Part shown: piece after piece, positions 7,713 to 58,927 of the stretch | How the letters are laid out: each line of letters opens with the position of its first letter | How positions within the stretch are numbered: the first letter of the stretch is position 1 | From: Sacculina carcini | Taxonomy: Eukaryota; Arthropoda; Thecostraca; Sacculinidae | Length of the DNA: 64,000 nucleotides | Reading direction: 5' to 3' | Assembly: GCA_916048095.2 (NCBI GenBank) | Contig: OU696582.1 | Coordinates: 4,742,001 to 4,806,000 of the forward strand | Position numbers and translations under genes: made by a program | The notes under the pieces: model-generated | Told to the model about the DNA's origin: nothing | What the model saw: only the letters and a program-made list of their open reading frames with translations | Databases searched by the model: none

Positions 7713-8049
7713 TGTCATGAAACTCAACGAGCCTGAACGAAAGGCTTTATTAAACTCAAAATTCACGACATATCTGTGAACGATCAAATCATACATTTAA
7801 GCATCATACATCATACACAACAATTAACGCATCAAATTTACAAAATATAAGAGCGGATGCTCAACTTGTAACAGCAATGTTCATTGAGCACAACACGTAT
7901 TTAGTTACATATTATAAACGAGACTATACGAAAACATACCGAAAACAACCCTTCCCAAATAACAAACACTTCGAGTGGAAAATACATCGCCGCACTTCGC
8001 TCAGAGGGAAACCAGTCACTAGCAATAGCAAGGATGCCAGATCATAACA
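7713..8049 (-). repeat. Element A 3' LTR
   Basis: 337 bp, TG...CA ends in plus orientation (TGTCATGA ... CATAACA). Nearly identical to 11716-12054. Confidence 0.9.
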
Positions 8050-8069
8050 CTCTCCCCATGTAATAAAAA

Positions 8070-11000: not shown

Positions 11001-11678
11001 GGTAGGGCACCTCCATCGCGGATGAGGTGGTTTCCCGCAGAACTGGCAAGTTGTTGACGTTTTGCGCATAGCAGAACATTCTGCATCTGAGTCCGGAGAC
11101 GCCGCTTCCATAGGAGTGACCTCCGCAACTGCTGCATACGCAGGACGATAAGCAGCGGCGTTCATCTGAGCCATTTCTAGGCTGCGTGCAGTGGCCACTG
11201 CCGACTCCAATGTCAGATCAGATTTTTCTAGCAGTCGCTGACGGATCTCGTCCGACGCCAGGCCAGATATAAATGCGTCACGAATCGCCTGGTTCCAATG
11301 TTCAAGTGCATTCACGGCGCCGAACTGACAATCCTTTGCAAGACCTTTCAAAGATTGCAGAAACGAATCAATTTTTTCTCCTGTAGATTGTTTTTTGGTG
11401 GCCAGCAGATGCCTCGCAAACACCGTGTTTTTGGGTTTGACGTAAGTCGATTTCAACACGCTGATTGCTTCCTCATATGTTACACAATCGGAGATGAGAG
11501 AGTACACATTCGGTGAAATATAATTGATGAGAATGCTGAGTTTGTTCAGAGGAGTGTCTGGATGCATCGCAGAGAGAGATGAGATACAGTTGTTCAACGT
11601 TATATGCCAATGCGTCCACTGCTCCGCGGTGGTCTCGTCATTGCCCTCGAAACGCAAAGGTTTCAAAAGATTTTCCAT
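8070..11678 (-). CDS. gag-pol: Element A gag-pol polyprotein (1202 aa)
   Basis: Single frame from an ATG at 11678. Gag occupies about residues 1-250, with two CCHC knuckles at 211-224 (CQFCGKPPHPRWRC) and 231-244. The aspartic protease motif DSG is at 290-292. Reverse transcriptase carries YIDD at 560-563. RNase H is of the ordinary Gypsy type, with ETDASGSALAA near 702 and TDQQAVSF. Integrase has an HHCC finger (HPGVARLNHF ... CRDCRTC) and the DDE acids in LAIDFVG, IHSDRGAQF and GNGQCERMN. All catalytic motifs are present, so the copy may be functional. Gag and Pol share one frame, with no frameshift signal needed. Confidence 0.92.
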   Translation of the reverse strand: MENLLKPLRFEGNDETTAEQWTHWHITLNNCISSLSAMHPDTPLNKLSILINYISPNVYSLISDCVTYEEAISVLKSTYVKPKNTVFARHLLATKKQSTGEKIDSFLQSLKGLAKDCQFGAVNALEHWNQAIRDAFISGLASDEIRQRLLEKSDLTLESAVATARSLEMAQMNAAAYRPAYAAVAEVTPMEAASPDSDAECSAMRKTSTTCQFCGKPPHPRWRCPTKDSLCRNCGKKGHFAVVCKSSSSRSNPVRTNAALSIAATRPLDSPKYPMLSVEIDRRQFKAMVDSGSTDNFIRPEIAKKMHLRILKSSETVYMASSQLMSRTGGYCLVDISVEGNVYRNVRLTIMPDLCVPMILGQTFMRLHRTVEFKFGGNNPTLQVCGVAQMNIDPPALFSNLTEDCRPICTRSRYYSSSDREFIKNEVRKLLKDGIIKKSNSPWRAQIVVTHNERHKKRMVIDYSSTINKFTELDAFPLPKISNIIHSLTQYKVFSKMDMKSAYYQCPIREGDRKYTTFEALGGLFEFTRLPFGLTNSVAVFQRVLTDLIRRNNIKGAHLYIDDIVIGADNEKELNQRVEAFTKVAKGMGLQLNQDKCEFNVRCLKYLGHQIENGTVRPDPERLEPLKSLPFPQCKKSLKRCLGLFSYYSVWIPNFSSQISPLLNTSSFPLTIEARRAFEKLKDDICSASLCAIKDNSPFRIETDASGSALAATLSQEGRPVAFFSRTLNRSERSQSTIEREAAAVIESIRKWQDLLTGRKFTIVTDQQAVSFIFNIKCLSKVKNDKLMRWRLELSSYCYDIEYRRGEFNAPVDALSRACSLTLTSSLSDIHVALCHPGVARLNHFVKEKNLPFSTEDVKKVCRDCRTCAELKPRFHKSPGTLIHAGRPMQRLAIDFVGPKPSTNRNRYLLVIVDEYSRFPFAFACADMTSQTVITCLTSLFTLVGCPETIHSDRGAQFVSSDLKHFLYHNGVTMSHSSPYHPIGNGQCERMNGCLWRSIRLALRSRQLNGTQWQEVLDIALHSVRSLLCTSTNTTPHNRFFNFMRRSGTGYSMPTWLAGGPALLRKFVRTSKSDALVEPVEILSSSPKVARIRHSDGRESSVSTDDLAPLPAFSDKSYDESNATSAENANVDISPRTLNPESVAGAEDSSRTTCDPDSEGAVNLGTSEDSPADVADTETALKFLPPRTRSGRRVVLNRKYQH

Positions 11679-11697
11679 GATGGAACCAGCGTTGATT

Positions 11698-11714
11698 ATT
11701 TTGAGTTTAATAAA
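11698..11714 (-). promoter_or_regulatory. Element A self-primer site next to 5' LTR
   Basis: Seventeen bases just inside the 5' LTR (plus strand ATTTTGAGTTTAATAAA) are the exact reverse complement of 11749-11765 inside the LTR (plus strand TTTATTAAACTCAAAAT). That LTR segment contains the AATAAA. Transcript folding would therefore pair an LTR-derived 5' region with the position where a primer must sit. This is the arrangement known from Tf1 self-priming; the function here is inferred. Confidence 0.7.
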
Positions 11715-11715
11715 T

Positions 11716-12054
11716 TGTCATGAAACTCAACCAGCCTGAACGAAAGGCTTTATTAAACTCAAAATTCACGACATATCTGTGAACGATCAAATCATACATT
11801 TAAGCATCATACATCATACACAACAATTAACGCATCAAATTTACAAAATATAAGAGAGCGGATGCTCAACTTGTAACAGCAATGTTCATTGAGCACAACA
11901 CGTATTTAGTTACATATTATAAACGAGACTATACGAAAACATACCGAAAACAACCCTTCCCAAATAACAAACACTTCGAGTGGAAAATACATCGCCGCAC
12001 TTCGCTCAGAGGGAAACCAGTCACTAGCAATAGCAAGGATGACAGATCATAACA
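11716..12054 (-). repeat. Element A 5' LTR
   Basis: 339 bp; pairs with 7713-8049. Contains the minus-strand polyadenylation hexamer AATAAA within the self-complementary block. Confidence 0.9.
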
Positions 12055-14405: not shown

Positions 14406-14417
14406 GCCGAAATAGCT
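14406..14417 (-). promoter_or_regulatory. Element B primer-binding site, tRNA-Phe 5'-end type
   Basis: The plus strand reads GCCGAAATAGCT, identical to nucleotides 1-12 of animal tRNA-Phe, and touches the LTR with no gap. On the element's RNA strand this is therefore complementary to the 5' end of that tRNA. No TGG follows the LTR. Confidence 0.7.
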
Positions 14418-14844
14418 TGTAATATTGAAAAAAAATGTATGTACAAATATACGAACGCAAACAACCACGCAACACTATCGCACACACCACGATCACTCTA
14501 TCACACACCACAATCACAATCACACCACACGATCACTATATCACACAGCTACCACGCAACGCTGTTACCCACAGCTCACACACCACCACCGTCCTCTACG
14601 CCTATCAGATTCACTCCCCTACACACACACACACACATGCACACACACACACACACACATGCACACACACATTCACGCACATCTAGTGAACTAAACGGAG
14701 CGAGCGCGAATCACACAAACAATACACACTGTTAGCTATACTAACTACGACAAGAGCACACACGCATACACACACTCACACACACACTCCCTCACTTACT
14801 CGCGCTATCTCTCTCACAATACAAACACAATACACAACACAACA
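14418..14844 (-). repeat. Element B 5' LTR
   Basis: 427 bp, uninterrupted copy; TGTAATATTG ... CACAACA in plus orientation. Confidence 0.9.
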
Positions 14845-26676: not shown

Positions 26677-26688
26677 GCCGAAATAGCT
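26677..26688 (-). promoter_or_regulatory. Element C primer-binding site, tRNA-Phe 5'-end type
   Basis: Plus strand GCCGAAATAGCT directly abuts the 5' LTR at 26689. Same 12-mer and position as in B and F. Confidence 0.7.
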
Positions 26689-26713
26689 TGTCGAATCGTG
26701 GAACACGGCTGAT

Positions 26714-26784
<71 letters not shown>

Positions 26785-26911
26785 CGGTATAAAGTATACA
26801 CAAGCAAGATATAATGACACACTGATATGCAAACACGATTCACTCACTCGCTACACACTACGCACACATTCACTCACTACGCACGTACAACGCACAACGG
26901 TTCACTCGCAC
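26689..26911 (-). repeat. Element C 5' LTR, part 1
   Basis: Contains an (AT)n tract at about 26719-26780, much longer than in the sister LTR. Continues at 31720 after element E. Confidence 0.85.
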
Positions 26912-27054
26912 TGTAGTGTGATGCTGCCCCGCCCAGAGGGCGCGGGCGCGGCTAGCGTGGATGACGCTACCCGCTACGAGTCAGTGTGTGTCCAGCAGTG
27001 GTCGTGTGCAGGTCGTGACTTTGTTACCCTATTGTACGTGTCCGCTTGTAACCA
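26912..27054 (+). repeat. Element E 5' LTR
   Basis: 143 bp, TGTAGTGTG ... TTGTAACCA. Identical by eye to the 3' LTR. Confidence 0.92.
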
Positions 27055-27067
27055 CGCTTTATAATAC

Positions 27068-30000
27068 ATGGCGCAGCCGACTGAGACTCAGCAGGCTCTT
27101 CTGGAAGGTCAGCAACGACAGCTGGACCAGTTGACATCGCTGGTAAGCATGCTCGCCCGGCAGCAGCTGGAACCGGCAGCCCCCGCCGGTGCACCTGCTG
27201 TGGCTCCCCGGGTGAATTCCCCGCCGCCAGCCCGCCTGTCCTACGACACGACTGCAGCTGGGTTCACAGCGTGGAAGGAACGAGTGCTGGCTCATGGCAC
27301 GTTATCTGGCAGCGAAAAACTCAGCCCAGCCCAGCAACAAGCGCTGCTCACCACGCTGCTGGACGATGAGTGGTGCCGCATCATCCGACACTCTGTGGCT
27401 CTACCGGCGGACGCTGATCTGCCAGCCTGCATTGAGCTGCTGGAAAACCACCAGCGGTCACGTCAACAGGTGTTAGTGCAGCGCCGGCATTTTTTCTCCC
27501 GCCGCCAGCACGACGGGGAGAAGGTGGGTGACTTCGTGCTCTCCCTGCGTGAGATTGCGGCCTGCTGCGATTTCTGCAGCAGTTGCCGCGATGAGCGCAT
27601 TCGCGACCAGATCGTCATGGGGACCGCTGACTCCACTGCCCTGCACCAGCTGCTGCAGGTTGCCCACAACGAATTGTCGCTGGAGAGGGCAGTCAAAATT
27701 TGCGAGTCAGCGGAGTGCGTCCGCCATGATGTTGTGGCCATGCAGCGAGCCACGCCCGATGTGGCTAGTTCAGCCACCATCCGTACAGAGGTCGCCGCCG
27801 TGCGCCGTCAACCACTGCGCATGCGCGAGCATTTCGGCCGGCAGCCACTGCGCATGCGCGACCAGCATGACCGTCAACCACTGCGCATGCGCGACCAACC
27901 GAACCTGCAGTCAGCTGATGGTGGCAACGGCTCTGCATGCGATCGCTGCGGCCAAAGACACCAGACGGCGCCATGCCGCGCTGCTGACTGCGTCTGTCGC
28001 CGATGCGGAAAGCGCGGCCACTACGCGCGTGCATGCCGTGCGCCCCAGTCCGGCACGGGCCGCCGCCGAAACAACTTCGTCGAATATGTTGGCTGTGATG
28101 CAAACGATGGTGTTGTGAACGACGAAAATACACAAGACACATTGTATATCGGTGATATTTTTGATCGTGCTGAACGCACCCGTTTGACCACCGTGGGCCT
28201 AACCGTTTCCGTGGGGGGGCACCAACCGCGCAAAATCACATGGCGCTGTGATTCTGGGGCCGATGTCTCCGTAGTAGATGCTGTAGTCGCGCAGCAGCTC
28301 GGGGTAGCCGCCAAGAGCTTATGTCCACCGCTGTCGCGCCTGCGGGTCGCCAACGGCCAGCCACTGCGGTGTTTGGGTACATTCGAGGCGCTGCTGCGAC
28401 TTGGCGACGCTTCTTGCCGCTCCACAGTGTACGTGGTGCCGTCAGTGCGGCGCCCTCTGCTCTGTTGGCGGGACGCAGTGGAACTGCGCCTGCTGCACCG
28501 CGCATTTCCGCGCCAGATGTCACGCGAGCAGCATCTACAGCAGGTGACCGCAGGACCGTCAGTCCCGATGCCGCGACCTTGCCCTCGCTGGACCAGCGCG
28601 GCGCAGCCTACCGCTGCAGAGCGACGGGCACACAGCGAGCAATTGTTGGCGGCCTTCACTCGCGTGTTCTCTACGGACGGTCCCCTCCGCGAGATGACTG
28701 GCGGTGCAATGCGGATTGACCTCCGAGATGATGCCGTGCCCAACAATGTGACCGCCCCTCGTTCTGTGCCATTCTGCCACCGCGCCCAGGCACAACAGCA
28801 GCTGGAGCAGCTGCAGCAGCAGGGCGTCATTGAGCCGGTGTCCCACCCGACTGACTGGTGCTCGCCCATTGTCGTGGTCGGCAAACGAAATGCGGACGGC
28901 ACGCCCAACGGTTGCCGCCTCACGGTGGACTTTACCCGTCTCAATCGTTTCGTCCGCCGACCGACTCATCCGGTTCGCTCGCCTGTCGAGGCCGTAGCCA
29001 GCATGGGCCTCGGCAACCGGTGGTTCACCCAGGTGGACGCCCTACAGGGCTACTTTCAGGTGCCCCTGCGCCGCGAGGACCGAGACCTCACCACTTTCAT
29101 CACGCCGTGGGGTCGGTTCAGGTTCTGCCGGGCGCCAATGGGCCTGGTGTCAAGCGGCGACGAGTTCAACCGGCGCGGCGACGTCGCCTTGGCTGGCTTA
29201 GCGGACTCGTGCAAGATTGTTGACGACGTGCTGGTGCACACTGCCAGCTACGACGACCATCTGCAGCGAGTCTGGCAACTACTGCAGCGCTGTGACGACG
29301 CCGGCGTCACTTTGAACCGGAAAAAGTTTGTCTTTGCGGCCACTGCCGCCAATTTCTGTGGCTTCCACATCACGTCCTCCGGATTTACCATCGACGAGAA
29401 GAAAATTCGGGCCCTGGCTGACTTCCCTACACCGACGGACCTGACCTCACTGCGGTCGTTCTTGGGCTTGGCGAATCAGTTTGGCGACTTCTCTGACGCC
29501 ATCGCTTCTGCTGCCGAGCCCCTGCGTCAGCTGCTCCGCAAAGGCATCGAGTGGCAGTGGTCGTCACAACACGACGCTGCTTTCACGGCCGTAAAACGCG
29601 CGTTGGCCAGCCCGCCCGTGCTTGGCCACTTCGACCCGACAAGGCCCACCATGTTGGAGACGGACGCGGCAAGACAGAAAGGCCTCGGGTTTGTGCTCCG
29701 CCAGCGGGACGACCAGGGCCGCTGGCAGCTCATCCAGTGTGGGTCGCGATTCGTCTCCGACACGGAGAGCCGTTATGCCGTCTGCGAGCTGGAGATGTTG
29801 GCCGTGGTGTGGGCCTGCCAGAAATGCCACCAATATCTGGCTGGCCTGCCCACCTTCAATGTGGTCACCGACCACAAGCCGCTGGTGCCCATCCTGAACG
29901 AAAAGGCGCTCGGAGACATCTGCAATCCTCGTCTGCAGCGCATGCGTCAGCGTCTACTGCACCTGACCTTTGTCGCCAGCTGGAGGCCAGGAGCACAGCA

Positions 30001-31576
30001 CAACATCGCCGACGCCCTGTCACGCGCACCCTCCCAGCCGGCCGGTGCTGACGCGGACGTGGACGACTCTTCGTCTGGATTTTTCATACAGACGCTAGAC
30101 GCCTTCTCAGATGAGGACGATGAAGGCCGCCGCACATCGCCAGTCGACACCACTCTGGAGGCGGTGCGAGCTGCGTCTCTCGCGGACGACGAGTGCCGTC
30201 AGCTGATGCCGTACGTGCTAGACGGCTTTCCTCAGCATAAGCATCTCCTACCGTCCAGCCTTCACCAGTACTGGGGTGTGCGCGACCAGCTCACTGCGGA
30301 CCATGGCCTGATTTTGGTCGGCTGCCGTCTGCTTGTGCCCAAGCGCCTGCGAAAAGATACCCTCCGCCGCCTCCACGAAAGCCATCAGGGGCAGGTCAGG
30401 ACGGTTCAACGCGCCCGCCAGACTGTATTCTGGCCTGGCCTTAATAACGACATCGCCATGGCCGTTTCGTCATGCCAAGAGTGTCTCGAATACAAGGACT
30501 CTCAGCAGAAAGAGCCATACATGGCGGAACCGCGCCCGACACGGCCCTTCGAATCGGTGTCGGCAGATTTCTTCTACCATGCGGGGAAAACGTTCCTCGT
30601 ATACGCCGACCGATTCTCCAACTGGCCGCTGGTGTTTGAATGTGGCCTTGACGCGTCTGCTCATCAGCTGGTGAAGCTGTTTCGGCGCGTGTTTGTCGCC
30701 ACGGGCGTACCGTCCATATTGTCGTCGGACGGCGGCCCGCAGTTCACTGCGCGTCTCACTGCCGAGTTCCTGCGACATTGGCGTGTCCGTCACCGACTCT
30801 CCAGTCCACGCTTCCCGTCCTCTAATGGGCACGCCGAGTCCGCTGTCAAGCGGGTGAAGCGACTCATCCAGAAGTCGGCCCACGACGGGGACCTCAACAC
30901 GGACGCGTTCGTTGCCGGCCTGCTGGAGATGTGTAACGCGCCTGGTGCCGACGGCCGCTCGCCCGCGCAGCTGCTGTACGATCGCCCCGTGTCGTCTGCC
31001 GTCCCCGCGCATCCTCGCGCGTTCCTGCCTGAATGGCAGCCGTCCACCGCTGAGTGTGATCTCCGAGCAGCGGCCGCGCACGACAGGCAGATCACCAACT
31101 ACAATCGGTCAGCCAGACCACTGCCGCCGTTATCGCCCGGCACTACAGTGGCTCTCCAGGACCCGACGACAGGCCGCTGGGACCGGACTGGCGTGGTCGC
31201 TGTCACTGGTCGTCGCCGCCAGTACGCGGTACGCTTACCGCATGGCGGTCTCTACTGGCGTAACCGCCGCCACCTGCGGCCAGCAGTCAGCGCACCCGCC
31301 TCCGAAGTGACGCCGCCACCATTTGTCAGCGCAGCGCGGCCAGAGGCCATGTGCCTGCCTTGCCCACAGCTGTCGCCGCCGCAACCGCCGCGAGAGACCA
31401 GCAGCAGCAGCGGACCCGCGCCGCCGCCGGGGGAGGATGTGAGCGGAACATCAGAGGCTCCACATACACCAAACCCTCGCCGAAGCGACCGAACCCGCAG
31501 ACCGCCGCCGCACCTGAGCGACTACGTCTGCAGGACCAGCAGCGCCCCCCTTCCGCCGCTTGGAGGGGAGATGTAG
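27068..31576 (+). CDS. gag-pol: Element E gag-pol polyprotein (1502 aa)
   Basis: ATG at 27068, 14 bp after the LTR; the start overlaps a possible primer site TGGCGCAGCC. Gag has a threefold repeat RQPLRMR(E/D) around residues 240-275, then Cys/His knuckles (CDRCGQRHQTAPC, CRRCGKRGHYARAC). Protease CDSGAD is near 395. RT has LTVDFTRLNRFV, TQVDALQGYFQVPL and the catalytic IVDDVLVHT. A Gypsy-type RNase H follows (LETDAARQKGLGFVL, VTDHKPLVP, NIADALSRAP). Integrase has HESHQGQVRT ... CQECLEY, and DDE acids in SADFFYH, LSSDGGPQF and SNGHAESAV. The stop TAG (31574-31576) lies inside the 3' LTR. No defect seen. Confidence 0.93.
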   Translation: MAQPTETQQALLEGQQRQLDQLTSLVSMLARQQLEPAAPAGAPAVAPRVNSPPPARLSYDTTAAGFTAWKERVLAHGTLSGSEKLSPAQQQALLTTLLDDEWCRIIRHSVALPADADLPACIELLENHQRSRQQVLVQRRHFFSRRQHDGEKVGDFVLSLREIAACCDFCSSCRDERIRDQIVMGTADSTALHQLLQVAHNELSLERAVKICESAECVRHDVVAMQRATPDVASSATIRTEVAAVRRQPLRMREHFGRQPLRMRDQHDRQPLRMRDQPNLQSADGGNGSACDRCGQRHQTAPCRAADCVCRRCGKRGHYARACRAPQSGTGRRRNNFVEYVGCDANDGVVNDENTQDTLYIGDIFDRAERTRLTTVGLTVSVGGHQPRKITWRCDSGADVSVVDAVVAQQLGVAAKSLCPPLSRLRVANGQPLRCLGTFEALLRLGDASCRSTVYVVPSVRRPLLCWRDAVELRLLHRAFPRQMSREQHLQQVTAGPSVPMPRPCPRWTSAAQPTAAERRAHSEQLLAAFTRVFSTDGPLREMTGGAMRIDLRDDAVPNNVTAPRSVPFCHRAQAQQQLEQLQQQGVIEPVSHPTDWCSPIVVVGKRNADGTPNGCRLTVDFTRLNRFVRRPTHPVRSPVEAVASMGLGNRWFTQVDALQGYFQVPLRREDRDLTTFITPWGRFRFCRAPMGLVSSGDEFNRRGDVALAGLADSCKIVDDVLVHTASYDDHLQRVWQLLQRCDDAGVTLNRKKFVFAATAANFCGFHITSSGFTIDEKKIRALADFPTPTDLTSLRSFLGLANQFGDFSDAIASAAEPLRQLLRKGIEWQWSSQHDAAFTAVKRALASPPVLGHFDPTRPTMLETDAARQKGLGFVLRQRDDQGRWQLIQCGSRFVSDTESRYAVCELEMLAVVWACQKCHQYLAGLPTFNVVTDHKPLVPILNEKALGDICNPRLQRMRQRLLHLTFVASWRPGAQHNIADALSRAPSQPAGADADVDDSSSGFFIQTLDAFSDEDDEGRRTSPVDTTLEAVRAASLADDECRQLMPYVLDGFPQHKHLLPSSLHQYWGVRDQLTADHGLILVGCRLLVPKRLRKDTLRRLHESHQGQVRTVQRARQTVFWPGLNNDIAMAVSSCQECLEYKDSQQKEPYMAEPRPTRPFESVSADFFYHAGKTFLVYADRFSNWPLVFECGLDASAHQLVKLFRRVFVATGVPSILSSDGGPQFTARLTAEFLRHWRVRHRLSSPRFPSSNGHAESAVKRVKRLIQKSAHDGDLNTDAFVAGLLEMCNAPGADGRSPAQLLYDRPVSSAVPAHPRAFLPEWQPSTAECDLRAAAAHDRQITNYNRSARPLPPLSPGTTVALQDPTTGRWDRTGVVAVTGRRRQYAVRLPHGGLYWRNRRHLRPAVSAPASEVTPPPFVSAARPEAMCLPCPQLSPPQPPRETSSSSGPAPPPGEDVSGTSEAPHTPNPRRSDRTRRPPPHLSDYVCRTSSAPLPPLGGEM

Positions 31577-31714
31577 TGTGATGCTGCCCCGCCCAGAGGG
31601 CGCGGGCGCGGCTAGCGTGGATGACGCTACCCGCTACGAGTCAGTGTGTGTCCAGCAGTGGTCGTGTGCAGGTCGTGACTTTGTTACCCTATTGTACGTG
31701 TCCGCTTGTAACCA
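31572..31714 (+). repeat. Element E 3' LTR
   Basis: 143 bp; its third to fifth bases supply the pol stop codon. Confidence 0.92.
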
Positions 31715-31719
31715 CGCAC

Positions 31720-31941
31720 GGCACAACGTCGCTCCCTTCACTCCTGCACCAACACTCAACACACCGCCCGAGATGATACTGACTGCCCGGCTTCAGCGTC
31801 ATGAACTTGCCTAGGCTCCGCCCACTTGTACTTAACACACACACACACACACATACACTACCGTACACAGGCACACACTGACAGACATACACTAAGCGCG
31901 CGCATGCAGCCCAATGGTGTGCTGCCTATATTTCACTGACA
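31720..31941 (-). repeat. Element C 5' LTR, part 2
   Basis: Continues 26689-26911 without loss apart from the duplicated CGCAC. Ends at TSD CCTTC. Confidence 0.85.
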
Positions 31942-34259: not shown

Positions 34260-34780
34260 TGTGGTTTTATTGTGTTCAATCGATACTTGTTCTGTGTCTG
34301 ACGATTCGGTCGCAGTAGATTCATGTATATCGTTTGCATTGTGAATTACGAGCATGAGATGTCATTGTATAGTTCAATGTTATTACGCCAGTGGATGACT
34401 CATCGTAAGGCGGCGACAGTGTGTGAGAGCGGGGAGAGCGCCGTCTGATGAACCTGAGTTCGTGTCGTTGCCATGGCGACAGCGGGCGCTTAGCAGGCGT
34501 TTGTGTGTCTGTGTGTGTGTTTGTGCAGTGGGCGAATTTTGATGACGACTGAGCGAGACGGGGTTAGTGAGTGTGTTGGAGGGCTTGAGTGCGTTAGTGT
34601 GCTGTGCGTGGTGTTGGGAAGCTGCGAGTTGGTTTTAGTGTGCACTTTTCTTGGATATATTTGCTGTGTGCGTTGTGTTAGTGATTCTAATATTTTTCTG
34701 GCGACATTTATAATTGTTGTCTTGTAATTAATGTCTTGTTGATCCATACGTGTCGTCAATATATATCATTCTCGACTACA
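34260..34780 (+). repeat. Element G 5' LTR
   Basis: 521 bp, TGTGGTTTTATTG ... CTCGACTACA. Matches 38412-38932 throughout by eye. Confidence 0.93.
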
Positions 34781-34792
34781 AGCTAACCGGCC
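34781..34792 (+). promoter_or_regulatory. Element G primer-binding site, tRNA-Ile 5'-end type
   Basis: AGCTAACCGGCC starts on the first base after the LTR. Its reverse complement GGCCGGTTAGCT equals nucleotides 1-12 of animal tRNA-Ile(AAU). No TGG motif is present. Confidence 0.7.
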
Positions 34793-34799
34793 ATCAGTC

Positions 34800-35540
34800 A
34801 TGACAACAGTGAACGTGGAGAGCATGATTTCGTCATTTTCAGGCGACGGTGATGTTGTCGCCTGGCTGAAGAAAGTGACACTTGTTGCGAAGCTGAAAAA
34901 AGTTGACGATTTGGCCAGCTTCATTCCACTTTTTCTTGAGGGCGATGCGCTGGCTCTATATTTGGAGCTCAGCGAAGAAGACCAACAGAAGGCAGATAAG
35001 ATAGAGCAGACACTGAAGACAACTTTTACTGACGATGCTTTCGCTGCGCATCAAAAATTGAGCGTCAAGAGGTGGACGGGAGAATCTGTTGATGTTTACG
35101 CCAACAATATCCGGAGATTAGCTGGGCTAGCGAATTTCACTGGTGTTGGCCTGAACAATATGTGTAGATTGTGCTTCGTGAATGGTTTTCCGGCGAATAT
35201 CAGGTCATCACTACAGAGAATTCAGAATGTTGATTCAGCAGATATGAGTTTTCTCATTGCACAGGCTCGTGTACTGACGAAGAACGCTGGTTCAGAACAC
35301 GTCGCAGCTGCTGGGTCGGCAAGTATTCCAAATGATGACGTGAAAATTCCCCCTCAACGATCGCAGTACAAAGGACGATGTTTCCTGTGTGGCGGTTCCC
35401 ATTCCGCTAGACATTGTACAAAGAAGCGCACAGTTATATGTTATTGTTGTCGTGAGGAGGGTCACATCGCTGCGAACTGTCCGCAGGGAAACGAGCGTGG
35501 AGTAGCTGGTGCGCCAACAGCTACTCCATTCAACCAGTGA
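34800..35540 (+). CDS. gag: Element G gag (246 aa)
   Basis: ATG at 34800, 19 bp after the LTR. Begins MTTVNVESMISSFSGDGD. The capsid-like helical region contains LFLEGDALALYLELSEEDQ and SVKRWTGESVDVYANNIRRL. Two C-terminal zinc knuckles: CFLCGGSHSARHC and CYCCREEGHIAANC. The TGA at 35538-35540 overlaps the start of the pol frame. Confidence 0.9.
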   Translation: MTTVNVESMISSFSGDGDVVAWLKKVTLVAKLKKVDDLASFIPLFLEGDALALYLELSEEDQQKADKIEQTLKTTFTDDAFAAHQKLSVKRWTGESVDVYANNIRRLAGLANFTGVGLNNMCRLCFVNGFPANIRSSLQRIQNVDSADMSFLIAQARVLTKNAGSEHVAAAGSASIPNDDVKIPPQRSQYKGRCFLCGGSHSARHCTKKRTVICYCCREEGHIAANCPQGNERGVAGAPTATPFNQ

Positions 35541-38389
35541 AGGCGCTCTGCAAATTGCCAACAGTTGAAGTGGTCTTGTCGGGTCGCAAAGTTCGGGCGT
35601 TGGTGGATACCGGATGTTCGACAGCAGTGGTGCGTGCAGACTTGGTAGATCATATCGACGGTTCCTGTGGTATGACGGCTTTTGATGGGAGGCAGGTGAA
35701 ATGCAGAGGAGTTGCAGAAGTGAGTATTGTTGTGGATGGGAGGCAGCTGAATGTGACGGCGGTGGTAGTGGATAATATCGTGAACAATGTGGACCTAGTT
35801 ATCGGCATGGACGTGATCAATAGATTGAACGGGGTGTTTGTGAGCAAGTCGGAAGTAAGTTTTGGGTCAAACCAGCTGATCGCAAGCGCAGTAAAGAGTG
35901 ATCGAGTTGTGTGTGATAGTGACAAAAGTGATGTCAGTGGCAGACTGATCATTGAAGATACAGATTTTTGCGCAGTGTTTGACGGGAAGCGATGGGAAGT
36001 GGAATGGCTCTCGAAAGGGATGGAGCCGGTTCTGTCGAAAAAGATTGGCTGCTACGCAAAGACAGTGAGACAGAGTGGTCAGAAAGAGTTCGATGCTGAG
36101 GTGCAACGTTGGGTTGACGAGGGCATCCTGATTCCGTGGTTCAACTCAGAAACAACTGGTGTGCTACCTCTAATGGCAGTGGTGCAGCCGACCAAGCACA
36201 AAGTCAGACCGGTACTTGACTTCAGAGAATTGAACAGTTTTGTGAGCAGTCATACTGGCGATGATTGTATTGATGTGTGCGGAGATAAATTGCGGGAGTG
36301 GAGACGTCAGGAAGAGCCGGCATCAATTGTTGATCTGAAGGCAGCCTACTTGCAAGTGCATGTGAGTCCCAAATTGTGGAAATATCAATTAGTCAAGTAC
36401 AATGGACGAATTTATGCGTTGACTCGGATGGGATTCGGACTGTGTTCTGCGCCTAGAGTTATGACACGTATAGTGCGTACCGTCCTTCAACAATCCGAGG
36501 TCATCAACAGAGCTACCGACTCATATATTGATGACATTTTTGTGAGAGAATCGGTAGTATCTGGTCAGGACGTCGTCAATCATCTGCGTAAGTTCGGATT
36601 GGAGGCCAAAGATCCAATTTCTATTGCAAATACCGCGGTACTCGGTCTTAAGCTACAGCGTGATCCAAAAGGTGAGCTAGTGTATCGCAGAGGCAATGAA
36701 ATCCCTCATGTTACGGCCCATTTGACAAAGAGAGACCTGTTTTCGCTCTGCGGAAAATTAATCGGGCATTATCCTGTAGCCAGGTGGTTGCGAATCGCCT
36801 GCAGCTACGTGAAACGACAAGCTGGTTCAATAGGATGGAATGACACCGTTAGCGATGAAGTTATGCACATGGTACAGGAAATGCTGAAACGGGTGCACTC
36901 GAACGATCCAGTTGGTGGCAGATGGTTTGTGCGGGATACTGGCGCGGGAATACTGTGGTGCGATGCCAGCTCAATAGCCATTGGTGCTGCTATTGAGATC
37001 GACGGTGAGATCGTTGAAGATGCCGCCTGGCAACGGAAAAAAGATGACGTGCATCACATAAATGTTGCCGAACTTGAGGCTCTGCTCAAAGGTATCAATA
37101 TGGCAATTAGATGGAAACTGACTGACATCGACATACGTACAGATTCAGCTACAGTTGCTGGATGGGTGGGAACCGTATTGTCCAAAGAGAAAAGAGTGAA
37201 GACAAAGGGAGCCGCAGAGATTCTGGTCAAACGTCGCTTGAATATCCTCAACGACCTGATCGATGAACTGGGACTTCGGGTGAAGATAAAAACTGTGCCA
37301 ACAACTTCCAACAAATCCGACGAGTTGACACGAGTTCCGAGAGGCTGGTTAAGGCATCCAATCGCAACATCAGGATGCAAAAATATGCTCAACAACAGTG
37401 AGGTGTGCATGGCGAGCTGGAGTGAGGTGAAAAATATGCATGAAATGCATCATATGGGGGTCGATCGCACGTTATTTTTGGCTCAACAAGTAGACCCCAC
37501 TGTGTCTCGAGAGATCGTTAGACGCGTTGTCAGGAGCTGTGAAAGGTGTCAATCAATTGATCCTGCTCCGTCAGCACACACGCCAGGACATCTTAGCATG
37601 GACGAGCCGTGGAGAAGATTGGCCACTGATGTCACCCACTACCGTCACGAAAAATACTTGTCAATCATTGACTGTGGCCCAGGACGTTTTGCAATTTGGC
37701 GTCAGATTCGTTCCGAAACAGCAGAGCATGTTTGCAGAATTCTCGATGAAGTCTTCCGTGAGAGAGGTCCTCCCCATGAACTACTGATGGATAATAGTAG
37801 TGTTTTCCGGTCTCAAGAAGTACGTCAACTGCTGGAGCGATGGAAGGTGAGACCGTTCTTCCGGGCGGCATATCGTCCTAGTGGGAACGGGATTGTGGAG
37901 CGCCACCATCGTACTGTCAAAGCTCTTGCCGAGAGAGGACAGGTGCCGCCTACAACCGCTGTATTCTGGTACAACATGGCGCCGAGAGCTGGCTTGGACC
38001 AGGAGTCGATTCCTCATCGCAATGTCCATACTTACAAATGGCGACACCCGGGTAGTGAGATACCGCACGATGGCGACGTCGGTGAATGTTCGGTTCGCAT
38101 TGGAGATGAGGTGTGGGTCAAGCCACCGGACGGACTGTGTACTTCTCAGTGGACGGTCGGCACTGTCACCGACGTGCACTCGAGGAACAATGTGTCGGTG
38201 GACGGTATGCCCCGTCATGTTCTGGACATTCGGCCTGTGGTGGTGGAGACGGAGACTGACGACGAAGTTCGGGACAGGTCCCAGCCTGCTGATGATGGAG
38301 ACGATTCACAAAGTGATCAAGATCAGCTCCCTCGGCGTTCTGGCAGAGAGCGAAGGCCCCCGGTATGGATGAGCGAGTACGCTACTTAG
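35537..38389 (+). CDS. pol: Element G pol (950 aa)
   Basis: The frame is -1 relative to gag, so ribosomal frameshifting or reinitiation is expected; no ATG is needed at 35537. Protease has VDTGCSTAVV near residue 24. RT has LDFRELNSFV, SIVDLKAAYLQVHV, TRMGFGLCSAPRVM and catalytic YIDDIFV. The connection has HLTKRDLFSLCGKLIGHYPV. RNase H has CDASSIAIGAA, NVAELEALLKG and IRTDSATVAGW. Integrase has the HHCC finger (MHHMGVDRT ... CERCQS), the DDE core (LATDVTHYRH, ELLMDNSSVF, GNGIVERHH) and a C-terminal VSVDGMPRHVLDIRP module. All motifs present. Confidence 0.93.
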   Translation: MKALCKLPTVEVVLSGRKVRALVDTGCSTAVVRADLVDHIDGSCGMTAFDGRQVKCRGVAEVSIVVDGRQLNVTAVVVDNIVNNVDLVIGMDVINRLNGVFVSKSEVSFGSNQLIASAVKSDRVVCDSDKSDVSGRLIIEDTDFCAVFDGKRWEVEWLSKGMEPVLSKKIGCYAKTVRQSGQKEFDAEVQRWVDEGILIPWFNSETTGVLPLMAVVQPTKHKVRPVLDFRELNSFVSSHTGDDCIDVCGDKLREWRRQEEPASIVDLKAAYLQVHVSPKLWKYQLVKYNGRIYALTRMGFGLCSAPRVMTRIVRTVLQQSEVINRATDSYIDDIFVRESVVSGQDVVNHLRKFGLEAKDPISIANTAVLGLKLQRDPKGELVYRRGNEIPHVTAHLTKRDLFSLCGKLIGHYPVARWLRIACSYVKRQAGSIGWNDTVSDEVMHMVQEMLKRVHSNDPVGGRWFVRDTGAGILWCDASSIAIGAAIEIDGEIVEDAAWQRKKDDVHHINVAELEALLKGINMAIRWKLTDIDIRTDSATVAGWVGTVLSKEKRVKTKGAAEILVKRRLNILNDLIDELGLRVKIKTVPTTSNKSDELTRVPRGWLRHPIATSGCKNMLNNSEVCMASWSEVKNMHEMHHMGVDRTLFLAQQVDPTVSREIVRRVVRSCERCQSIDPAPSAHTPGHLSMDEPWRRLATDVTHYRHEKYLSIIDCGPGRFAIWRQIRSETAEHVCRILDEVFRERGPPHELLMDNSSVFRSQEVRQLLERWKVRPFFRAAYRPSGNGIVERHHRTVKALAERGQVPPTTAVFWYNMAPRAGLDQESIPHRNVHTYKWRHPGSEIPHDGDVGECSVRIGDEVWVKPPDGLCTSQWTVGTVTDVHSRNNVSVDGMPRHVLDIRPVVVETETDDEVRDRSQPADDGDDSQSDQDQLPRRSGRERRPPVWMSEYAT

Positions 38390-38411
38390 TGATCTTGAGA
38401 TCAGGAGGTGA

Positions 38412-38932
38412 TGTGGTTTTATTGTGTTCAATCGATACTTGTTCTGTGTCTGACGATTCGGTCGCAGTAGATTCATGTATATCGTTTGCATTGTGAATTA
38501 CGAGCATGAGATGTCATTGTATAGTTCAATGTTATTACGCCAGTGGATGACTCATCGTAAGGCGGCGACAGTGTGTGAGAGCGGGGAGAGCGCCGTCTGA
38601 TGAACCTGAGTTCGTGTCGTTGCCATGGCGACAGCGGGCGCTTAGCAGGCGTTTGTGTGTCTGTGTGTGTGTTTGTGCAGTGGGCGAATTTTGATGACGA
38701 CTGAGCGAGACGGGGTTAGTGAGTGTGTTGGAGGGCTTGAGTGCGTTAGTGTGCTGTGCGTGGTGTTGGGAAGCTGCGAGTTGGTTTTAGTGTGCACTTT
38801 TCTTGGATATATTTGCTGTGTGCGTTGTGTTAGTGATTCTAATATTTTTCTGGCGACATTTATAATTGTTGTCTTGTAATTAATGTCTTGTTGATCCATA
38901 CGTGTCGTCAATATATATCATTCTCGACTACA
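38412..38932 (+). repeat. Element G 3' LTR
   Basis: 521 bp; see 5' LTR. Confidence 0.93.
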
Positions 38933-38937
38933 AATAT

Positions 38938-39679
38938 ATAAGCCAATATGACATGTTTCATTAATTACTTGCCACAGTCAATTCAGGCACGCTATTTAAT
39001 TCATCATTCACAACATGCTGCAGCTCATCAACATGTCGACAAAAACGTGTTTACACACTTCACGAATACAACATTGCGAAATACAAAGCCAATAACTGAG
39101 CATAAATGCAAGCATTGACAGACGCACAACAATAAATTTGATGATGACCAAATATCACATAGAACAGCGGTCCGAAACATGCGCTAATTATCCGCTCATG
39201 TATATTGCAAGTGTGTTTGTAAGTGTCGATTTGTCAATTGTAAGTGTCGCTAAGTGGGGAACTAAAGTTCGGATAGAAGGACAAATGCGTGTTTTTATCA
39301 ATCCGAACTCTTTCATTTTCGCTTATATCAACTTCCTGGCATTGAATTTGTTCGAACCACTGGATTCATAAGATTCCTCAGCGGTTCCAAGAAATCAATA
39401 AATTGACACGCTTTCACATGAGAATATTGAATAATCGATCTTAAAGCAAATCCATGGGCACTATTCATTCTATATCAACGATAATGACACGCACACATAT
39501 ACACCATACCACACCATATCACACATTACCACCATATCACACATTAACACCATATCACACATTAAAACCATATCACACATTAACACCATATCACCCATTA
39601 ACGCACAATTTGCACGCATCAACATTAGATATTATTGGATAAAATGATCAAATATTTAAAAAAGATTGAAACATTGAAT
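38938..39679. other. R3 body, middle part, with a minisatellite
   Basis: AT-rich and non-coding. Holds about five copies of an 18-bp unit (ACCATATCACACATTAAC) at 39505-39603. Confidence 0.7.
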
Positions 39680-39986
39680 TGTTATGAAAGATTAGCCTCA
39701 ACGATAGGCTTTATTCATCACAAAACACACATCTACTGAAACAAAAGAAAGTACAAATAGATATGTGAACCATAAAACGTTATATATACGGGATAATTGT
39801 AAGTACACAATTAAACAAAATGATCGCCCAAAATGTGCTATTTACAGAATATTTAACACACAAATATACCCGGAGATGTGCACGCAAAACACGATGGTGA
39901 AATACAAAATACGTTGTTGTTGTTATACAGAAAATACCCACTGCGCTGCCAGATGAACGCACAAAAATAGCCAAGATTTCATAACA
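39680..39986 (-). repeat. Element H 3' LTR
   Basis: TGTTATGAAAG ... TTTCATAACA, 307 bp. Confidence 0.9.
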
Positions 39987-39996
39987 ATCTCCCCCT

Positions 39997-41364
39997 CTAA
40001 AAATCGCAAACATAGTCTCCAAAACGACTGGGCGGTCTACGGACGCGACTCGACCTTCGGACAGTCTGAACCTCATCACCAGCTTCGACTCTACTTTCGT
40101 CGTTTGCTTCGCCACCAGTCTCACCCGAGTGTCTGGATGCCTGTGGTCCGGAAGGATCTGAGTTTGAAAAATCAGTATTCGCCGAAGTGGTAGGGCTCGA
40201 CGCGTCACCTCGAGTCGCCGGTTCATTCACAGCATCACTGGAGATAACAGTAGACTCACGATCAGTAGAAATATGTGATGGTGCCAAATGTCTTGTAGAT
40301 ACGGTCGTTTCGACACCTGCACGATTTCGAATATGAGCATAATGTGGGTTTGCCTGTATGAGTTCCACTTCTTCAACAAGCGGTTCATTTTTGCTTGCCC
40401 GTACGTGGCGCTTCAGAAGAACAGGACCTGGATGACAGAGCCAAGAAGGAACCGACGCACCTGAAGAAGAACGTCGTGTGAAGTTGAATAAACTTTCATG
40501 TGGAGTTGAATTGATAGATGTGCACAACAACGAGCGTATAGAATGCAGAACACCCGGCAAAACAGTCTGCCAGTGCTGTGTCTGAAGACCACGAGACTTC
40601 AGAGCCATCAAAACACTTTTCCATATGACTCCGTTAAAACGCTCAACCTGACCATTTCCTTGTGGATTATAGCTCGTTGTTCTGCTGCACGCTATTCCTT
40701 TTCTCATTAAGAAATCTTGAACCTCCCTGCTCATGAAATACGATCCTCTGTCGCTGTGTATGTATGCCGGCATACCAAAAATGGAGAATAGATGCGCAAG
40801 GCAGTCGATGACGGTAGCGGCAGTCATGTTCGAACAGGGATACACAAACGGAAAATGAGAATACTCGTCTATGATATTCAGAAAATAGCAATTCTTATCT
40901 GTGCTTGGTAAAAGTCCCTTGATGTCTATATTTAAACGTTCAAATGGTTGTGTTGCTTTAATTAGACTAGTCTTCTCAGGTTGATTAAATCTTGTTTTGA
41001 CTTCGGCACACACTTTGCATGACCGGATGACCTGTCGAACATCCTCTACAGAATATGGCAAATTCTTGATCCTGATGAAATGACACAGGCGGGTGACGCC
41101 AGGATGACATAAAGCTTCGAGGAGAGACCTCAACGCATCGGCACCACTGCAGGCTGCTCCACAATGAGGCCTGGAGAATATGTCAGGAGTTACATTCTCG
41201 TGACCTGGTCGGAAAACGATGTCGTAGTTGTAACAGGACAGCTCTAGACGCCAACGCAAAATTTTGTCGTTCTTTATCTTACTTCTATGTTGCTTGTCAA
41301 ACATGAAGCTCACAGATTTCTGATCAGTCCTTATGATGAAACGTCTTCCAGTTAGATAATGACG
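39997..41364 (-). pseudogene. pol: Element H RNase H end and integrase
   Basis: The end of a Gypsy-type RNase H (LRWRLELSCYNYDIVFRPGHEN) runs into integrase with HPGVTRLCHF ... CKVCAE, and DDE acids in LNIDIKGL, IHSDRGSYF and GNGQVERFN. The frame is intact from 41313. The TGA at its upstream edge replaces what is Trp (WQD) in element A. Confidence 0.85.
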
Positions 41365-42408
41365 TCAGTGAGGGACTGCTTCGATGATGGCCTGCGCTTC
41401 TTTTTCCACCGATGCGTATAATTTCTCGGGCCCTTGAAATGTTCTTGAAAAGAACGCTACAGGGCGTCCATTCTGGGCCAGTACAGCGGCGATCGCCACG
41501 TCGGACGCGTCAGTTTCCACGTCAAAAGGAAGTGTCTCATCAATCGCTTGCACTACTGAATTTTCTATTTCACCCTTGAGTTTTTCGAAAGCGATCTCAG
41601 CTTCCTTGGAGACTGGAAAGGTAGTGGTGCTGCTTAACGAGTGAACCTTCTGAGAGTAGTTGTGGATCCAATGCGAATAATACGCAAACAAACCCAATGT
41701 TCGATTCAGTGACTTTCTGTCCTTGGGTACAGATAATTCGCGTAGAGGACGAAGTCTCTCTGGATCTGGGCGTTTCTTGCCATCTTCCACCACATAGCCT
41801 AGAATACTGAGACACTTTGTCGAGAATGAGCATTTTTCATCGTTGTAGCTGATGTTTCTTCTTTTCGCCGCTGCCATGAATTTTTCAAGGTTTGAGTCAT
41901 GCTCTTCTTGAGTCATACCACATATGGTGACGTCATCCAAGTAGGCAAACGTCCCAGAGAGCTGTTCTTCCTGAATCAAGGAATCCATGATCCGTTGGAA
42001 GCAGGTGACGCCCTTCGTAACTCCGAATGGATTTCGAGTAAACTGATATAAACGGCCGCCAGCTTGAAACGCCGTATATGGCTTGTCTTCATTCTGAATC
42101 GGGATCTGATGATACGCACTCCTCAAGTCTATCGTGCTGAAAATTCGGTAACGCGCAATTTTGTCCACGGTATCGTCAATTCGTGGTAAAGGGTAGCTGT
42201 CGAGAAGCGTGAACTTGTTTACTGTCTGCGAATAATCAACAGCCATGCGCCATTTCTTCGTGCCATCTTTGACCACAACAATCTGTGCACGCCAAGGAGA
42301 ATTTGACGGTTCAATGACTCCTTCCTTCAACAGCCGCTGAGTCTCTTTCTCGATGAACAACCGATCTTGATGTGGTACCTCCTGGACTTGGTTGGAATCG
42401 GATGACAA
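41365..42408 (-). pseudogene. pol: Element H reverse transcriptase
   Basis: RT with WRMAVDYSQTVNKF, STIDLRSAYHQIPI, NPFGVTKGVTCFQ and the catalytic YLDDVTI, then the RNase H start ETDASDVAIAAVLAQ. Cut off from protease by a one-base frameshift near 42390 and from the rest of RNase H by a TGA. Confidence 0.85.
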
Positions 42409-43617
42409 TCTTCTGTCATGTTTTTTAAAAGTTCAGGTGGGTCCACTTTCATGGCACTGAATCCACAGACAACGAGAGGTGGCAGATCTCCTCCGTACTT
42501 CAAAACGACATTGTCATGCATCTGCTGAAAATCTTGACCCAGAATAATATGTGAACACAATTGAGGCAGGACTGTCAAACGCACCCTATCGTATTGTCGA
42601 CCATTAACTCTGATATTGACCAGACAGTGTCCAGACGTTCGCGTGGAGAACGAAGTTGAAGCCATGGAAACAGTACTGGGTGATGGCTGAACAGTTAGCG
42701 AGTGGCGTTTAACGAGACACGGATGAATGAAACTTTCCGAGCTACCACTATCTACGAGACCGTCAACCTCCTCGTTAGCAATGAAAACCTTCACAGCCGC
42801 CTTTGACAATGAGCTCGGAGTGGCTGCCGACATAGTAGATGCTATCATTTTGCCGACAGAATCCACGTCTGTATTTGCAGCAGCTGTTGTCGGCCTTCCA
42901 CGACACACTTTGGCAAAATGACCAGTTTTCTGACATTTATGACAGACAGCTTCTCGAGCAGGACACCTTGAGCGAGGGTGTCTTTGTAAACCACAAAAGA
43001 AACATTTCGCACTCACAGCACATGTAACAGCAGTGGTGTCATTATTTTCACAGAGTGAGTCGGCCGGGACACATGCCGCATGAGTTTCACCGTAGACAAC
43101 AGAGTTATTCCGAGCCGACTCTAGAGCTCGCGCTTGGTCAAACATGGTAGTCAGTTCCAATGTTGTATTCTCCAGGAGGCGCTGTCGTATAGCTGACGAC
43201 TGAAATCCAGCAATGAATGCGTCACGTATAGACTCTTCACAATATTTTGTTGAAGTGACGGCCTGGAAATTGCACTCTCTGCTGAGAACTTTGAGAGCCT
43301 GAAAATACTCGTCAAGAGACTCTCCCACCTGCTGACGCCGAGTGGCCAGTCGGTGACGGGCAAACACTTCGTTTGACGGTCTGACATACTGCGACTTGAG
43401 ACACTTGATAGCTTTTTCGTACGTATCACAGTCAGAAATAGTATCGTACACCTTTGAAGACACAAAATTGACTAGTAGTCCCAACTTGTTGGCGCTTCTT
43501 TGAGGAACGACTGTCAGAAAAAGCTCGAAAGTTTTGAACCAGTGTTTCCACTCTTGTTTCGCTGAAGACGAGGACGGGTCACAGTCCAACCTCTCTGGTT
43601 TGAAAAAGCGTTCCATC
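42390..43617 (-). CDS. gag: Element H gag and protease
   Basis: ATG at 43617 (MERFFKPERLDCD). Gag resembles element A in spacing (KQEWKHWFKTFELFL, YVRPSNEVFARHRLATRRQ). Two zinc knuckles (CFFCGLQRHPRSRC, CHKCQKTGHFAKVC). Protease VDSGSSESF. The frame runs on to 42327 in the wrong phase for RT. Confidence 0.85.
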
Positions 43618-43626
43618 TTATCGGAT

Positions 43627-43644
43627 TGTTTTGTGATGAATAAA
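43627..43644 (-). promoter_or_regulatory. Element H self-primer site next to 5' LTR
   Basis: Plus-strand TGTTTTGTGATGAATAAA is the exact reverse complement of 43676-43693 in the LTR. Same position as in element A (one base inside the LTR border), different sequence, complementarity kept over 18 bases. Confidence 0.7.
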
Positions 43645-43645
43645 T

Positions 43646-43952
43646 TGTTATGAAAGATTGGCCTCAACGATAGGCTTTATTCATCACAAAACACACATCT
43701 CCTGAAACAAAAGAAAGTACAAATAGATATGTGAACCATAAAACGTTATATATACAGGATAATTGTAAGTACACAATTAAACAAAATGATTGCCCAAAAT
43801 GTGCTATTTACAGAATATTAAACACACAAATATACCCGGAGATGTGCACGCAAAACACGATGGTGAAAGACAAAATATGTTGTTGTTGTTATACAGGAAA
43901 TACCCACAGCGCTGCCAGATGAACGCACAAAAATAGCCAAGATTTCATAACA
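43646..43952 (-). repeat. Element H 5' LTR
   Basis: 307 bp; pairs with 39680-39986. Confidence 0.9.
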
Positions 43953-54512: not shown

Positions 54513-54769
54513 TGCAAGACAGACTATATATATAAACACACACAAATAGTAACACACACAGACTATGTCACACAAATCACAACGCACAGACAGCGCACGC
54601 ACGATCACCGCCGATCACCGAACAAACACTGCTCGCCTTTGGCCTTGACAAGGACATTGCACCTTACGTTGTCGCATGGGGACGCCGTTACTTGAAACGC
54701 GGTATCGCACAGCGATGCACACGCGGTCTTTACCACAGTAGCTTGCTGACTCTTTAATAAACTCTAACA
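54513..54769 (-). repeat. Element F 3' LTR
   Basis: TGCAAGACAG ... CTCTAACA, 257 bp. Confidence 0.9.
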
Positions 54770-58658: not shown

Positions 58659-58670
58659 GCCGAAATAGCT
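58659..58670 (-). promoter_or_regulatory. Element F primer-binding site, tRNA-Phe 5'-end type
   Basis: Plus strand GCCGAAATAGCT touches the 5' LTR at 58671, as in B and C. Confidence 0.7.
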
Positions 58671-58927
58671 TGTAAGACAGACTATATATATAAACACACA
58701 CAAATAGTAACACACACAGACTATGTCACACAAATCACAACGCACAGACAGCGCACGCACGAGCACCGCCGATCACCGAACAAACACAGCTCGCCTTTGG
58801 CCTTGACAAGGACATTGCACCTTACGTTGTCTCATGGGGACGCCGTTACTTGAAACGCGGTATCGCACAGCGATTCACACGCGCTCTTTACCACAGTAGC
58901 TTGCTGACTCTTTAATCAACTCTAACA
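58671..58927 (-). repeat. Element F 5' LTR
   Basis: 257 bp; see 54513-54769. Confidence 0.9.

Follow-up and report, generated by a model that had tools for sequence, protein, structure and literature searches.

Primer-binding sites complementary to the 5′ ends of host tRNAs suggest priming by a 12-nt tRNA fragment in a divergent LTR retrotransposon lineage of Sacculina carcini

Priming is the founding step of reverse transcription. In the Tf1 element, an RNA duplex has to be cut by RNase H, going by the title of a 1996 report by Levin that is cited in PMC4600332. In LTR retroelements more generally, the available portions of one survey name three primer types, i.e., whole tRNA, half-tRNA and self primer, and the methods described there to search for primer-binding sites (PBS) use tRNA 3′ ends and the elements' own LTRs (PMC6317226). 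No primer consisting of the 5′ end of a tRNA surfaced in the accessible parts of the open-licence papers that our literature search covered, which agrees with the initial annotation of this locus, where no family primed in that way was said to be described. Here, we analyzed a window of 64,000 nt of the S. carcini genome, in which eight LTR pairs were delimited. Four of the elements (B, C, F and G) carry a site matching a tRNA 5′ end; of the same eight, A and H have a self-complementary site, D a tRNA-Ser 3′ site and I a TGG-type site.

Element G (34260–38932, plus strand) has LTRs of the form TGTGGT...ACTACA at 34260–34780 (5′) and 38412–38932 (3′), identical over 522 of 522 positions of a BLAST alignment whose final base matches by chance. 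Since the target site duplication (TSD) AATAT stands on both sides, the LTR end is fixed at 34780. The 12 bases directly 3′ of the terminal ...ACTACA, AGCTAACCGGCC at 34781–34792 on the plus strand, form the PBS and are the reverse complement of nt 1–12 of tRNA-Ile(AAT). The tRNA-Ile genes begin with GGCCGGTTAGCTCAG, found exactly at 10 places in the 264-Mb genome, and ARAGORN calls the loci shown with this start tRNA-Ile(AAT), beginning with those bases. The zero-gap match of G to tRNA-Ile and the arrest of pairing at nt 1 in a common register, both put forward in the initial annotation, are exact for tRNA-Ile when compared with the genomic genes. Taken alone, the bare 12-mer is unremarkable in the window, where it has one match at ≤1 mismatch against 0.12 expected and where 11 of 100 shuffles also contain one; its weight comes from position and recurrence.

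The second site, AGCTATTTCGGC, is present in three exact copies in the window, all on the minus strand, which adjoin with zero gap the 5′ LTRs of F (58659–58670), C (26677–26688) and B (14406–14417). A further copy with one mismatch is located at 30675–30686, making four matches where 0.19 are expected, a number reached in none of 100 shuffles. The LTRs of F are 97% identical (5′ at 58671–58927, 3′ at 54513–54769 with its end inferred, both on the minus strand), and the TSD CTCAA fixes the LTR end. Near-identical TG...CA LTRs with a TSD identify G, and F likewise, as LTR retrotransposons. Part of the 5′ LTR of C lies at 26689–26911 on the minus strand and the remainder at 31715–31941; judging from the repeats, it was probably interrupted by element D (26912–31717), an apparent insertion. 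The 5′ LTR of B spans 14418–14844 on the minus strand; B looks internally deleted, and the sequence directly after its PBS is read by eye as late pol. All three sites are the reverse complement of nt 1–12 of the metazoan tRNA-Phe, the comparison here being with the general metazoan sequence and not with a gene read from this genome.

We scanned all registers at offsets 0–15 with 17 tRNAs, i.e., 16 read from the genome (Val-TAC and two variants were left out) and the metazoan tRNA-Phe. The best matches were nt 1–12 of tRNA-Ile for G and nt 1–12 of tRNA-Phe for B, C and F, with 0 mismatches at offset 0 in every case, while the runners-up had 2–3 mismatches and lay outside the anticodon region. 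These four sites show neither the canonical pairing with a tRNA 3′ CCA end (TGG...), nor the anticodon-region pairing of the copia type with any of the 17 tRNAs, nor the complementarity to the element's own LTR that is typical of Tf1/sushi elements. The same scan recovered the canonical tRNA-Ser 3′ site in D, which serves as a positive control. It lies 14 nt beyond the apparent end of the LTR, where it overlaps a putative gag ATG. For A, H and I, none of the 17 tRNAs matched with fewer than 3 mismatches. In A (7713–12054) and H (39677–43952), both on the minus strand, the sequence that follows the 5′ LTR can pair with the LTR of the same element over 17 and 18 nt, respectively; the complement sits 31–33 nt from the LTR end, and its sequence differs between the two. 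A and H look self-primed in the manner of Tf1, so that two non-canonical priming styles would coexist in one window, in apparently separate lineages.

The weak point of the tRNA 5′-end reading is that an intact tRNA-Phe gene was not found in the assembly. A gene beginning with GCCGAAATAGCT was sought with a 15-mer (0 matches), and two anticodon-arm patterns also gave 0 matches. For GCCGAAATAGCTV there are 46 genomic matches, and ARAGORN reported no tRNA gene at the 20 that were checked (every one of the 15 with C at nt 13, plus 5 more). Several of these checked matches resemble sites with a mutated LTR end. BLAST with the metazoan tRNA-Phe returned two genomic places only, both of them fragments. 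Because the DNA search skips some words and some stretches of the assembly are N, a gene may be there although these searches did not return it. For the Phe match we rely on the metazoan sequence and on the two genomic tRNA-Phe 3′ fragments. These fragments suggest that the host has, or once had, a tRNA-Phe whose acceptor strand TTTCGGC is complementary to GCCGAAA. The earlier assignment of B, C and F to nt 1–12 of tRNA-Phe at zero gap stands exactly against the metazoan tRNA, with no intact gene for it found in the assembly; likewise, the proposed check that tRNAs of this species start with these 12 nt came out positive for tRNA-Ile and found no gene for tRNA-Phe.

Both sites together recur at about 2,200 genomic places. 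The Phe site preceded by ACA (ACAAGCTATTTCGGC) occurs at 1844 (924 + 920), with 0 + 0 for the reversed control, and the Ile 12-mer at 402 (205 + 197, the 10 tRNA-Ile gene places included), with 22 (10 + 12) for its control. We also selected copies by the gag of G, a criterion in which the 12-mer plays no part: 150 matches were scored of 2052 candidates, and we read the best 30 (G among them) and 40 of the other 120, hand-picked for variety. All 70 copies carry the Ile or the Phe 12-mer with at most 3 mismatches (none in 58 copies, one in 8, two in 3 and three in 1), as the initial annotation had anticipated for related copies. Among 30 Phe-site loci, 16 match gag/pol pieces of the B/C/F/G lineage and 14 are without a match, in a test confined to 1.5 kb after the site, where RT is barely reached; none of the 30 matches the pieces used of A, H, D and I, the queries for D comprising no gag. 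Genome-wide patterns for tRNA-Lys and for tRNA-Ala/Cys gave no sign of use, with one copy for Lys and one match for Ala/Cys. The lone Lys copy (L099) has a site that reads as the 5′ 12-mer of tRNA-Lys(CTT), which may point to a third primer or to an Ile site altered by two mutations.

The pooled set comprises 185 loci, with the tRNA-gene loci L002 and L003 left out and L007/L022, a single place, counted once. Exact sites are present in 172 of them, and these 172 form 84 clusters and 47 flank groups (<60% ungapped identity between groups), of which 33 are Phe, 13 Ile and 1 mixed. Across the 47 groups, conservation drops away right after base pairing with tRNA nt 1: positions +13 to +20 hold only 0.04–0.33 bits, and the LTR-terminal ACA holds 1.85 bits at each base. 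As ACA together with the 12-mer had served to select the Phe pool, and the 12-mer to select much of the Ile pool, the pooled values bear solely on where the site ends at its 3′ side. When the gag-anchored part is taken by itself (10 groups, from 57 exact loci whose flanks are complete), the base at +13 is A in 7, T in 2 and G in 1; among the 30 Phe loci, the site is followed by C in 12, A in 12, T in 4 and G in 2. We rejected the idea that hypervariability at +13 marks where the primer ends: it is seen in 6 of 25 clusters (Poisson p = 0.0074 for this one position), but position −36 has 7.

The mixed group is the only one among the 47 with both Phe and Ile sites, and it contains the pair L084 (Ile) and L085 (Phe). 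These copies differ at 9 of 203 positions on the LTR side, at 5 of 12 in the PBS and at 0 of 46 aligned positions on the 3′ side, which also contains an indel. The five PBS changes convert one tRNA 5′ end into the other (Fisher p = 1.3 × 10−4, for a pair chosen because its sites differ). In this subfamily, as judged from the aligned copies, the Phe site was exchanged for the Ile site as a unit. Tandem sites are found in 9 of the 80 loci read, in which an Ile site adjoins the LTR and is followed by a 7-nt spacer and then a Phe site; both are exact in L182, L206, L223, L225, L231 and L235, and one is decayed in L186, L204 and L211.

The coding part of G lies on the plus strand. Its gag (34800–35540) starts at the ATG at 34800 of a 265-aa open frame (34743–35540) and has a zinc knuckle scoring 19.9 bits, just below the Pfam threshold of 20.8. 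The pol gene (35456–38389, 977-aa open frame) overlaps gag in another frame and contains an RT core with YIDD (36179–36718) of a divergent lineage common to C and F, an RNase H region (36953–37264; Pfam RNase_H 21.7 bits, cut-off 25.8; RVT_3 at 37028–37168, 24.7 bits, cut-off 21.6) and a Pfam integrase core, rve (37607–37879). Pfam matches to a protease, to RVT_3/RNase_H and to rve succeed one another along the pol of G, with the YIDD motif of the RT after the protease. The order protease, RT, RNase H, integrase is that of Ty3/gypsy elements, some of the Pfam scores being below cut-off. Piecewise RT identity is 38–71% among G, C and F (G–C 41%), 44% for A–H and 25% for A–G. The RT of C scores 28.9 bits with RVT_1 (cut-off 29.6), and no RVT_1 match is listed for the G pieces. 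A 280-aa piece of G had no match in PDB at E 0.1, and viral_contigs, searched with the RT piece and gag, yielded no relatives. Relatives of the gag elsewhere amount to 228 proteins; among the 120 matches listed, identity reaches 59% and none is named.

We hypothesize that minus-strand DNA of this lineage is primed by the 5′-terminal 12 nt of a host tRNA, mostly tRNA-Phe and often tRNA-Ile. We give this reading, which includes the placement of B, C, F and G in one divergent LTR retrotransposon lineage with Ty3/gypsy-type domain order, a probability of roughly 80%. What the sequence itself shows is the site with its register and boundaries, how often it recurs and that it can be exchanged as a unit; we infer priming by a tRNA fragment from this anatomy and its evolution. 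The tRNA 5′ end matured by RNase P would pair with the PBS as a 12-bp RNA duplex, and cleavage of the tRNA would follow after nt 12, with the element's RNase H as the likeliest enzyme, in the way that Tf1 cuts its own 5′ end. The new 3′-OH would adjoin the LTR and be extended into U5, the primer being a 12-nt RNA, GCCGAAAUAGCU or GGCCGGUUAGCU, joined to the LTR end. Copying of this primer up to its physical end (nt 1) would rewrite the PBS, which would explain why conservation stops at nt 1 and why a switch changes all 12 nt at once. The tRNA is probably cut in situ; G has an RNase H region, whose cutting activity is predicted. Against such a primer, twelve bases is short. Fragments of 16–35 nt are given in the part of a tRNA-fragment review that we drew on (PMC7515703), and rewriting of the PBS from the primer is not universal, since it is absent in Ty1 and Ty3 according to the sections consulted of another paper (PMC5371799).

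Two loci, both of the Phe type, fuse tRNA-Phe to Phe-site elements. The fragments are nt 38–72 in L154 (94% identity; 1501–1535 of the reverse complement of the locus) and nt 38–67 in L155 (100%; 1501–1530 of the reverse complement), and both start exactly at nt 38, just 3′ of nt 37. In L154, TTTCGGC closes the tRNA fragment, and next comes a leader that belongs to a Phe-site family (matching from +42, with 73–77% identity), so that tRNA nt 66–72 stand in place of PBS nt 6–12, i.e., in the register of the PBS; an inverted copy of the leader lies upstream (93% over 174 nt). The fragment in L155 borders on a direct repeat of 227 nt (99%), taken here to be a truncated LTR; the first copy of this repeat ends at a Phe site. 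An inverted 93-nt flank is also seen in L155. Position 58 of tRNA is that of m1A58, and the modified base at G37 of tRNA-Phe is a strong RT block; the change A58T is present in L154 and absent from L155. Such chimeras could arise if nascent minus-strand DNA ending in GCCGAAA annealed to the acceptor 3′ strand of that same tRNA, which would then be copied up to the modified base at nt 37. We consider the chimeras supportive, not conclusive, of priming by the tRNA 5′ end. A tentative extension, to which we assign somewhat less than even odds, is that these elements form a fourth primer class of LTR retroelements, in which RNase H would cut the tRNA after nt 12 within the duplex while nt 13–76, with the acceptor 3′ strand unpaired, would stay in the particle and sometimes be copied by template switching, giving rise to the tRNA-Phe(38–72) chimeras at the PBS.

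The most serious competitor, although less likely than not in our judgment, is that a host nuclease produces a longer 5′ tRNA fragment or tRNA half, which is trimmed to give the primer, instead of the element's RNase H cutting the tRNA in situ. Precedents exist, as half-tRNA primers are described for copia and Ty5 in the excerpts at hand (PMC5371799) and for the plant elements Osser, Bryco, Gymco-II and Bianca in the corresponding part of the survey (PMC6317226). However, those halves end in the anticodon region and the sites described here end at nt 12 throughout; because the paired 3′ end is nt 12, a tRNA half would still need about 20 nt of trimming. Much less probable is the idea that the site is an anti-tRNA packaging or translation element beside the LTR and that another primer is used. 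It draws on the gag ATG, which in several families follows the site by as little as 0–8 nt, but the position and orientation of the site are those of a PBS, neither a canonical nor a self PBS is seen instead in B, C, F and G, and the unit swap between tRNAs fits copying from the primer.

We give very little credence to self-priming of the Tf1/sushi type, in which the PBS would pair with the 5′ end of the element's own transcript and the tRNA likeness would be incidental. The 17- and 18-nt complements of A and H show that such sites occur in this window, and a short zero-gap site does resemble that of Tf1. The longest complement of the 12-mer in the LTRs is, however, 6 nt in G, 6 in B, 6 in C (both parts) and <5 nt in F, and on this basis (≤6 nt) we rejected self-priming for these four elements; nor does self-priming predict a single 12-mer in 33 (Phe) or 13 (Ile) flank groups with unlike LTR ends. 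Each of the two 12-mers, moreover, corresponds to the 5′ end of a tRNA. That the site reflects chance, or a single ancestral 12-mer that was inherited, is hardly credible: the bare Ile 12-mer is not significant in one window and the carriers with recognizable proteins belong to one gag/pol lineage (16 of 30 loci), but two tRNAs appear in the same register, 172 exact sites are spread over 47 flank groups and the L084/L085 swap within a subfamily speaks against pure inheritance, which upholds the initial view that chance is unlikely.

If priming by the 12-nt tRNA 5′ end is true, some two thousand sites would represent a fourth primer type, one that links the self-priming of Tf1 to tRNA priming. 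PBS searches that rely on tRNA 3′ ends and on an element's own LTRs would miss such elements. The same reading predicts a 12-nt tRNA fragment, as well as an RNase H acting on RNA duplexes outside fungi.

Each of the known systems shares part of this arrangement. As in canonical retroviruses and Ty3/gypsy elements, and in D with its tRNA-Ser 3′ end, the PBS stands beside the LTR and is complementary to a tRNA; the canonical elements pair with the 3′ CCA end, whereas none of the sites in B, C, F and G starts with TGG. In bivalve TRIMs, the sequence directly after the 5′ repeat likewise resembles a tRNA elsewhere than at its 3′ end, but there the match is to the central part of tRNA-Tyr, concerns two species and comes with no clear mechanism from its authors in the text accessible to us (PMC6934838). 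In copia, Ty5 and Osser/Bryco/Bianca, an internal cut frees a 3′-OH in the 5′ part of the tRNA, as would be the case here; going by the portions of the two papers considered, that cut falls in the anticodon region (PMC5371799, PMC6317226), whereas B, C, F and G pair with nt 1–12 and the 3′ end would lie in the D stem. The nearest parallel is Tf1. This element and Tj1 are alike in that a PBS by the LTR pairs with the physical 5′ end of an RNA and in that cleavage of the duplex is needed to provide a 3′-OH. Tf1 pairs with its own transcript, whereas B, C, F and G would pair with a host tRNA in trans.
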